64,000 bases of DNA from Tenacibaculum sp. Lineage in GTDB: Bacteria > Bacteroidota > Bacteroidia > Flavobacteriales > Flavobacteriaceae. The notes beneath the pieces are model-generated. The model was not told the origin of the DNA and ran no database searches. It saw only the letters and a list, made by a program, of their open reading frames with translations. Position 1 is the stretch's first letter. Each line of letters opens with the position of its first letter. Positions 56,013 through 58,365 of this stretch are shown in pieces. A program made the translations under genes and the position numbers. Location of the stretch: NCBI GenBank assembly GCA_018456245.1, contig JAGYHQ010000003.1, positions 1 to 64,000 of the forward strand, written 5' to 3'.

Positions 56013-56588
56013 ATGAATATACTAATATTAGATAATTATGATTCATTTACCTACAATTTAGCACATTATGTAGAAGATATTACAGGTAAATTACCTGATG
56101 TGTATAAAAATGATGAAATAACGGTTGATGAAATAAAAAATTATGATATTATTATTTTATCACCTGGGCCGGGTTTGCCAAGTGAAGCAGGAATTTTAAA
56201 AGAAGTTATAAGAACTTATGCAGGTAAAATTCCAATTTTAGGAGTGTGTTTAGGTTTACAAGCAATTGTTGAAGTTTTTGGAGGGAAGTTAAAGAATTTA
56301 GATGAAGTTTTTCATGGAGTTGCATCAACAGTAAATGTAATGAATACGGATAGTGTTTTATTTAAAGATATTTCAGAAAAATTTGAAGTTGGGAGATATC
56401 ATTCGTGGGTTGCATCAAAAAATAATTTTCCAAAAGATTTAGAAGTTACTTGTGAAGATAAATTTGGTAATATTATGGCAATTAAACATAAAAAACACAA
56501 AATAGAGGCTGTTCAATTTCATCCTGAAAGTATTTTAACGCCTTTTGGAAAAAAAATGATGGCTAATTTTATTAATAGTATTAATTAA
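56013..56588 (+). CDS. Glutamine amidotransferase, anthranilate/aminodeoxychorismate synthase component II
   Basis: ILDNYDSFTYNLAHYVED, GVCLGLQAIVEVFGG, VQFHPESILTPFG; trpG versus pabA not decidable from sequence alone. Confidence 0.92.
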   Translation: MNILILDNYDSFTYNLAHYVEDITGKLPDVYKNDEITVDEIKNYDIIILSPGPGLPSEAGILKEVIRTYAGKIPILGVCLGLQAIVEVFGGKLKNLDEVFHGVASTVNVMNTDSVLFKDISEKFEVGRYHSWVASKNNFPKDLEVTCEDKFGNIMAIKHKKHKIEAVQFHPESILTPFGKKMMANFINSIN

Positions 56589-56613: not shown

Positions 56614-56621
56614 TACATTTG
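56614..56621 (+). promoter_or_regulatory. Candidate -7 element (TACATTTG) of the trpB leader transcript
   Basis: TAnnTTTG match, last base 8 nt before leader-peptide-1 ATG. Confidence 0.6.
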
Positions 56622-56629
56622 TAGTAACA

Positions 56630-56683
56630 ATGAAACAGAATTCAACAAATACAATATGGTGGAAATCTCTTAACAAAAGTTAG
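56630..56683 (+). CDS. Trp leader peptide 1 (MKQNSTNTIWWKSLNKS)
   Basis: 17-codon ORF with two consecutive Trp codons followed by a rho-independent terminator. Confidence 0.8.
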   Translation: MKQNSTNTIWWKSLNKS

Positions 56684-56715
56684 TGGGACTATTTTTCGTA
56701 CAAAAAATATTATAG

Positions 56716-56745
56716 AAAGGCTTATCTCATGATAAGCCTTTTTTT
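56716..56745 (+). terminator. Attenuator terminator 1
   Basis: AAAGGCTTATC-TCAT-GATAAGCCTTT then T-run. Confidence 0.88.
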
Positions 56746-56766
56746 ATTGAAAAAAATAATAAACAA

Positions 56767-56820
56767 ATGACAAATTTTAAATTAAATAATTGGTGGTGGA
56801 TAACTCAAAACACAAGTTAG
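56767..56820 (+). CDS. Trp leader peptide 2 (MTNFKLNNWWWITQNTS)
   Basis: 17-codon ORF with three consecutive Trp codons followed by a rho-independent terminator. Confidence 0.82.
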   Translation: MTNFKLNNWWWITQNTS

Positions 56821-56852
56821 TGAGTTTATCCGTGTATATAATAAAATTACAG

Positions 56853-56881
56853 AAAGGCCTATCTCACGATAGGTCTTTTTT
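56853..56881 (+). terminator. Attenuator terminator 2
   Basis: AAAGGCCTATC-TCAC-GATAGGTCTTT (one G.U pair) then T-run. Confidence 0.88.
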
Positions 56882-56923
56882 AGTTAAAAAAAAACAAATA
56901 ATAATAAATTAAAAACAATTAAA

Positions 56924-58108
56924 ATGAAGTATCAAGTAAACGAAAAAGGTTATTACGGAAAGTTTGGAGGAGCATTTATTCCGCCAATGCTACAGCCAAA
57001 TGTAAAAGAATTAGAAGATAATTATTTAAAAATTATTCAGTCAGAAGCATTTCAAAAAGAGTATAAAGAATTATTACAAGATTATGTGGGACGACCAAGT
57101 CCGTTGTATTATGCAAAAAACTTATCTAATAAATATGGAACACATATTTATTTAAAACGAGAGGATTTAAACCATACAGGGGCACATAAAATTAACAATA
57201 CTATCGGTCAAATTTTAATAGCAAAACATCTTGGAAAGAAAAAAATAATTGCAGAAACAGGAGCAGGGCAACACGGGGTGGCAACAGCAACAGCTTGTGC
57301 TTTAATGGGTATGGAATGTACCGTTATTATGGGAGCAGAAGATATTAAACGCCAAGCACCAAATGTATCAAGAATGAAAATGCTTGGGGCAACTGTAAAA
57401 CCAGCAAATTCAGGCTCAGCAACATTAAAAGAAGCTGTTGATGAGGCATTAGGGTATTGGATGGAAGACCCAACAGCATTTTTTTTAATAGGCTCGGTAG
57501 TAGGTCCTCACCCTTATCCTGATATGGTTGCAAGGTTACAATCGGTTATTTCCGAAGAAATTAAAAAACAATTAAAAGAGAAAACAGGAAAAGAAAACCC
57601 TGATACTATTATTGCTTGTGTTGGAGGAGGTAGTAATGCCACAGGTGCTTTTTATCATTTTTTAGATGATGAAGAGGTGGAATTAGTTGTAGTAGAATCG
57701 GCAGGTTGTGGAGTAAATTCAGGGAAAACGGCGGCTACCTTACATTTAGGAAAAGAGGGAGTTTTACATGGAAGTAAAACAATTTTAATGCAAGATGAAA
57801 ACGGAGAGGTTATAGAGCCATATTCAATTTCAGCAGGATTAGATTACCCCGGAGTAGGACCTCTTTTTGCCCATTTAAATGATGTAGGAAGAATAAAATT
57901 AATTAGTGTAACCGATGATGAAGCTTTAAATTCAGCTTATGAACTAACCAGAATTGAGGGGATTATTCCTGCATTAGAAAGTTCTCACGCAGTGGCAGTT
58001 TTATCTAAAATGAAGTTTAAAAAAGACCAAGTGGTTGTGGTAAATTTATCAGGACGAGGAGATAAGGATTTAGAAACGTATATGAAAAGTTTAAAAGATT
58101 ATGAGTAA
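56924..58108 (+). CDS. trpB: Tryptophan synthase beta chain
   Basis: [57 protein letters not shown]. Confidence 0.97.
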
Positions 58109-58155: not shown

Positions 58156-58341
58156 ATGTATCCTTATCATAATAGAATTAAGCAACGTATAAAAAACGAT
58201 GAATTAGTAGGTTATGAATATGTAGAAAAATACAAGAATATATCTCCTTGTTTATTGTTGTATTTTTCTACCGAGCCTAAAATTCGTCCTATTAGAGAAC
58301 ACCGTTTTAAAGAATACGAAGAAATTTTAAAAAGTTTTTAA
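58156..58341 (+). CDS. Small conserved-looking hypothetical protein
   Basis: MYPYHNRIKQRIKNDELVGYEYVEKYKNISPCLLLYFSTEPKIRPIREHRFKEYEEILKSF, 61 aa, tight spacing to trpB and ruvB. Confidence 0.75.
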   Translation: MYPYHNRIKQRIKNDELVGYEYVEKYKNISPCLLLYFSTEPKIRPIREHRFKEYEEILKSF

Positions 58342-58365
58342 AAGTTCTGTTATATTTGTAAGTAT

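Follow-up and report, generated by a model that had tools for sequence, protein, structure and literature searches.

Two leader-peptide units in series upstream of trpB

The stretch of DNA analysed here (hereafter the window; 64,000 nt) carries a trpG/pabA-type gene followed by trpB, and the 335-nt gap separating them holds two units built to a like plan, all on the + strand. The features of the locus are:

56013..56588, + strand: trpG/pabA-type glutamine amidotransferase (NCBIfam TIGR00566, over cut-off), upstream of and outside the attenuated unit
56614..56621, + strand: TACATTTG, -7 box of a Bacteroidota primary promoter; the position of TAnnTTTG is conserved in the genus
56630..56683, + strand: leader peptide 1, MKQNSTNTIWWKSLNKS; Trp codons 56657-56662, stop codon TAG 56681-56683
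56666..56688, + strand: module 1 hairpin 1:2, lying over the stop codon; fold of -5.3 kcal/mol
56682..56730, + strand: module 1 antiterminator 2:3, from a fold without the 3' arm and covariation across 19 lineages
56714..56747, + strand: terminator 1 (3:4) and U tract; -16.4 kcal/mol, arms 56714-56726 and 56731-56743
56767..56820, + strand: leader peptide 2, MTNFKLNNWWWITQNTS; Trp codons 56791-56799, stop codon TAG 56818-56820, A-rich start context
56798..56831, + strand: module 2 hairpin 1:2, from folding; GGAUAACUC.AAAC with GUUAG..UGAGUUUAUCC
56820..56867, + strand: module 2 antiterminator 2:3, from folding and covariation; GUGAG (56820-56824) with CUCAC (56863-56867)
56851..56881, + strand: terminator 2 (3:4) and U tract; -15.4 kcal/mol, arms 56851-56863 and 56868-56880, one G-U pair
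56924..58108, + strand: trpB, tryptophan synthase beta, 394 aa (TIGR00263, 572.9 bits against a cut-off of 392.5)

The initial annotation had proposed two leaders of 17 residues each (one with WW, one with WWW), each followed by a terminator, with a shared AAGTTAGTGRG segment. Both leaders are present exactly at 56630-56683 and 56767-56820, both terminators lie where they had been placed (56714-56743 with the loop TCAT and 56851-56880 with the loop TCAC), and the shared segment occurs exactly twice in the 64 kb, each time within a module, with 0.07 occurrences expected. The two leaders are also the only ATG-started mini-ORFs shorter than 30 aa with a WW pair on either strand of the window; at least two such ORFs appeared in 2/5000 mononucleotide shuffles of the 335-nt intergenic region. 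Folding z-scores were -3.1 for module 1 and -3.6 for module 2, and a covariance model (described below) scored the modules at 93.2 and 93.1 bits, respectively. A generic terminator scan of the window did not list the two + strand attenuator hairpins, a likely reason being that the stems extend into the T tract. Downstream, a small + strand ORF of about 61 aa (MYPYHNRIKQRIKNDELVGYEY...) occupies window positions 58156-58342 between trpB and a ruvB-like gene.

Competing pairings within the two modules

In module 1, segment 1 (UCUCUUAAC, 56666-56674) follows directly after the Trp codons, and segment 2 (GUUAG-U-GGGA, 56679-56688) covers the leader stop codon (GUUAGUGGGA). Segment 3 consists of the terminator loop plus the last part of the 5' arm (UCUCAU), and the 3' arm forms segment 4; the 2:3 partners lie around GUGGGA (56683-56688) and UCUCAU (56725-56730). 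The arrangement thus combines an ORF with Trp codons, mutually exclusive antiterminator and terminator, a terminator with a U tract and a pathway gene downstream, as in a trp-type attenuator. Within the window the 2:3 pairings are weak, at -5.7 and -6.1 kcal/mol versus -16.4 and -15.4 kcal/mol for the terminators. For segment 2 of module 1, pairing with terminator 2 is slightly more favourable than with terminator 1, so that crosstalk between the modules is possible.

A single module precedes trpE in relatives

A search for trpE and trpB in relatives revealed that the trp operons of the genus are headed by trpE, and that a single leader stands just before it, for example MMKQNNIWWWNSLNK followed by TAAGTGAG and the hairpin AAAAGGCTTATC-TCAC-GATAAGCCTTTT. 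Most relatives carry three Trp codons and module 1 carries two. All three pairings (1:2, 2:3 and 3:4) can be folded in the modules of the genus, the 1:2 hairpin being weak in three of them. The residues NSLN, which recur in the leader peptides of the genus, probably reflect a constraint on the nucleotides of segment 1 and not on the peptide.

A covariance model built from the alignment of 21 relatives' modules and the two window units matched 282/301 genomes of the family and 103/109 of the genus. In 80 fetched family loci, one Trp-run leader with a terminator was the usual arrangement, and the next ORF was TrpE-like in 76. Outside the family, Trp-run leaders with terminators were also found upstream in the trp regions of the Bacteroidota Sphingobacterium, Dyadobacter, Carboxylicivirga, Chryseolinea, Labilibacter, Prolixibacter, Olivibacter and others. 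In the 30 best-scoring trpE loci across the phylum (L308-L337), only three (L332, L334 and L336) showed a Trp leader, reflecting either a limit of the scan or true absence, and its presence is therefore not universal in the phylum. The large surveys used stricter filters, which weak units may escape.

The strongest support for the antiterminator is comparative and includes a permutation test on the pairing of the stretch that separates the Trp codons from the terminator with the terminator 5' arm plus loop. Across 19 lineages, own 2:3 partners paired with a mean of -15.5 kcal/mol versus -10.7 (sd 0.64) for swapped partners, and none of 20,000 permutations was as low. Both sides of the pairing have been replaced together between lineages: GUGAG:CUCAC in the genus, GAGAAGC:GCUUCUC in two further loci (L037, L054), GAGAGUU:AACUCUC in Carboxylicivirga and UGUGAACAGC:GCUGUUCACA in Chryseolinea. 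The two window modules themselves pair no better with their own partners than with many of the exchanged ones. Similar units have this sequence in common, so exchanging partners among them makes no difference, and the argument for the 2:3 pairing rests on the wider set. One genus module (L033 of genome G003, 1320-1436) has its terminator hairpin core inverted, with TTATCGTGAGATAA in place of TTATCTCACGATAA and the loop GTGA in place of TCAC; judged from its sequence, this inversion keeps the terminator and should break the usual GUGRG:CUCAC antiterminator, making it an exception.

With leader, segments 1-4 and covariation conserved across Bacteroidota, these comparisons lend good support to ribosome-mediated Trp attenuation as the type of module, as had been suggested from the window alone. 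The initial annotation had regarded such attenuation as established in Proteobacteria; the type was correctly recognized, but it is not proteobacterial only, being near-universal in Flavobacteriaceae (282/301).

A small relative (1.5 Mb) carries a further variant of the element. At L242 (G094:C1:130370-131280; minus strand, ~511-390), the leader MKKLQLNMWWWKHEIFIS and a terminator are present, and no ORF of at least 60 aa follows in the same direction within the 911-nt locus. This gene-less attenuator is possibly a relic or a trans-acting RNA. By extension, the terminated RNAs or leader peptides of the window might act in trans, with the control of trpB being secondary. Besides the retention of an attenuator without a gene at L242, a trans action has been reported for a Trp leader, the peTrpL peptide of Sinorhizobium (PMC7298713). 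However, the conserved features are all explained in cis, and we consider this account extremely improbable for the trpB locus.

Promoter position and predicted near-leaderless translation

In the genus, the TAnnTTTG box ends 7 nt (range 6-8) before the leader ATG in 22/22 members, and it ends 8 nt before leader 1 in the window; a TTG is mostly present 19-20 nt upstream in the promoters of relatives. The almost fixed spacing of 7 nt at the 22 genus leader loci (L033-L057) is an observation in its own right, and selection seems to maintain near-leaderless translation of the leader throughout the genus. As the -7 box spans -12 to -5 in Flavobacterium psychrophilum (PMC9723704), the predicted start of transcription is about 3-4 nt upstream of the ATG of leader 1. 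This would place the start at approximately 56626, with a 5' UTR of about 4 nt, and make leader 1 near-leaderless; leaderless mRNAs are a minority (5.5%) in F. psychrophilum (PMC9723704).

The 50 nt preceding leader 2 contain no -7 box, and inspection by eye revealed none from terminator 2 to trpB. Since the promoter box lies before leader 1 only, both units should share one transcript, and the locus would thus present two complete units on a single RNA. The modules are therefore not equivalent, the promoter box and predicted near-leaderless start belonging to the first only: ribosomes should begin leader 1 right at the 5' end of the RNA, and leader 2 would require internal initiation or reinitiation.

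These observations bear on two alternative accounts. According to the first, trpG/pabA and trpB are separated by hairpins that terminate constitutively or insulate, with the Trp-rich mini-ORFs being there by accident; this would suit flanking genes that may now serve different pathways. However, the same leader and hairpin stand before trpE in hundreds of genomes, the 2:3 pairing covaries, WW mini-ORFs are unexpected by chance, and transcription of trpB would have to cross both hairpins, as the sole promoter box observed precedes leader 1. We consider this account highly improbable. The second account proposes a gate with two inputs, in which leader 1 also reports the global state of initiation or ribosomes and leader 2 reports Trp-tRNA. 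The predicted 4-nt 5' UTR of leader 1 and the internal start of leader 2 would fit such a division, for which the tandem, two-signal leader of Salmonella mgtCBR offers a precedent (PMC3641672). Yet the Trp runs occupy the same place in both leaders, and the single modules of the genus are equally near-leaderless, meaning that this property is not special to the double arrangement. We regard a division of signals as rather improbable.

Rarity and origin of the double module

Among the 103 genus genomes with a model match, no genome other than that of the window showed a second match beside the first. The initial annotation had suggested that relatives be compared for single versus double modules: the single module turned out to be conserved, but the double is not conserved in the genus. 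Doubles were found elsewhere. In another genus of the same order, two of three genomes (L031 and L343, two species) have two WWW units in series before trpE and the third (L341) has the downstream unit only, and gain or loss of the double could be dated in this genus. In Prolixibacter denitrificans (L093), two modules in series precede a trpE-like start. Doubles are rare and, from their distribution, seem to have arisen more than once. An apparent second module at L247 was rejected, as reading of the DNA showed an unrelated upstream terminator, and a screen of ~800 genomes for paired TGGTGG runs separated by a T tract was too noisy, the matches that were read being coding-like.

The two window modules agree in 84/122 alignment columns (~69%), and each matches the single modules of relatives up to 72-74%. 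The proposal of a module duplication with divergence therefore finds no support in these identities, the two like modules being no closer to each other than to the units of relatives. A recent tandem duplication was dropped as an explanation since the mutual identity of ~69% is no higher than that with relatives; the event is either not recent or obscured by divergence.

It could be argued that only one of the modules works and that the other was left behind when a rearrangement brought the element from trpE to trpB, being now either neutral or no more than a terminator. The lack of conservation of the double within the genus, the retention of the second module only in L341, the WW instead of WWW in module 1 and the identity of only ~69% would all agree with this. 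On the other hand, both modules keep an intact leader ORF, the Trp run, segments 1 and 2, a terminator with complementary arms and the U tract, and their model scores are near-equal (93.2 vs 93.1 bits). A dead module should have lost some of these features in an AT-rich, reduced genome. A single working module is therefore unlikely, and joint action of both remains our preferred reading.

A tandem Trp leader-peptide attenuator was not found in the open-access papers searched, and an earlier description is possible. A serial pair responding to the same Trp signal appears to be undescribed; the single unit is of an ordinary type in the phylum.

An orphan trpB in a reduced genome

The genome comprises 1.59 Mb in 56 contigs and is 96.5% complete. 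No trpE was found in it beyond pabB and menF-like matches; the trpE match on the same contig is best explained by pabB (TIGR00553), located at contig positions 63893-64972. A joined TrpA-TrpF-TrpC-TrpD query gave no match in the genome, whereas all four proteins were found in the positive controls, three genus members and one genome of another family. The description of a lone trpB behind the modules was confirmed, and the genome as a whole yielded no other trp-specific gene, which the initial annotation had no means of seeing; with 96.5% completeness, a missed trp operon is unlikely. The claim of two attenuator modules in series before a lone trpB is accordingly upheld.

TrpB is intact, retaining the 13-residue and SGRGDKD catalytic motifs. 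It is 73-76% identical to its counterparts in genus members, which are 83-100% identical to each other, and this divergence fits a changed constraint after the loss of TrpA. Another genome (G024:C15:5471-6643) has, besides the operon copy, a divergent second TrpB with 55% identity to the query.

The TrpG of the window shares 73-75% identity with TrpG from the trp operons of two genus members, and the locus accordingly resembles what is left of an operon in which the attenuator now stands behind trpG. This position would free a pabA function from Trp control, and with pabB on the same contig, the trpG/pabA-type gene probably serves folate synthesis. For the orphan trpB, a role in indole salvage is plausible, where Trp would be made from scavenged indole and serine.

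A proposed serial gate on trpB

Altogether, we propose that two ribosome-mediated attenuators sensing charged tRNA-Trp are arranged in series and jointly control the orphan trpB, a reading to which we assign a probability of roughly 0.78. It builds on the anatomy of the units, their conservation and covariation, the position of the promoter box and the absence of other trp genes, all read from DNA; ribosome stalling, termination, an output set by the product of two steps and indole salvage are what it predicts. When the Trp codons are read without delay, the ribosome at the stop codon would cover segment 2, allowing 3:4 to pair and transcription to stop. A ribosome stalled at the Trp codons would cover segment 1 only, so that 2:3 could pair and the polymerase pass. 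If translation is absent, 1:2 would form, and the terminator as well. Because both modules lie in the path of the polymerase, trpB should be expressed only under a shortage of Trp-tRNA. In comparison to one module, two would be expected to leak less and respond more steeply. A likely use would be the conversion of scavenged indole and serine to Trp when the supply fails in a cell without de novo Trp synthesis.

A more far-reaching version can be offered only tentatively, as we give it somewhat less than even odds. Here, the pair would be an ultrasensitive, low-leak gate for a single signal that has arisen repeatedly in Bacteroidota and, at this locus, guards a TrpA-independent TrpB for the use of indole. 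The two tests would differ in their kinetics, since ribosomes would load on an almost leaderless mRNA at the first gate and initiate internally at the second.

Classical Trp attenuation is best known from Proteobacteria and Actinobacteria. The present comparison places it in nearly all Flavobacteriaceae and in many further Bacteroidota, and its leader ORF is unusual in being, by prediction, near-leaderless. The trpB locus itself may serve as a natural test of what a second, like attenuator contributes in terms of leak, steepness and noise, a question discussed so far mainly for tandem riboswitches and T-boxes. It also appears as a case in which pathway loss left one enzyme, with its control kept and doubled.

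Comparison with known attenuation systems

The modules share with the E. coli trpL type a leader with a Trp run, exclusive pairing among segments 1-4, a stop codon over segment 2 and an intrinsic terminator before a trp gene. They differ in their unrelated sequence, the predicted nearly leaderless 5' end, the serial pair and the position before an orphan trpB instead of a trpE-headed operon. In agreement with this, an Rfam search of the window returned two tRNAs only, with no match to RF00513 (Trp_leader) at the gathering score and none to a T-box.

Within the same family, leader-peptide attenuation has been inferred in Flavobacterium psychrophilum, where the same kind of element precedes amino-acid biosynthesis operons; the main text of that study, however, contains no Trp module, tandem or orphan trpB (PMC9723704). 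The leader of Salmonella mgtCBR likewise holds two attenuators that depend on short ORFs, but it senses ATP and proline, whereas here both leaders have Trp runs and each has its own terminator (PMC3641672). In the tandem T-boxes of Gram-positive trp operons, tRNA-Trp is likewise sensed twice in series by the same device, and these pairs were proposed to be pseudo-cooperative, resembling a digital system (PMC12452182). T-boxes, however, bind uncharged tRNA directly (PMC12452182), while in the units described here the sensor would be the translating ribosome. With regard to physiology, trpRBA of Chlamydia offers a comparable setting, as a reduced genome has kept tryptophan synthase for the use of indole under Trp-dependent control (PMC7755916). 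Chlamydia, however, retains trpA and employs TrpR and YtgR (PMC7755916), whereas the locus analysed here has trpB alone behind a pair of leader-peptide attenuators.
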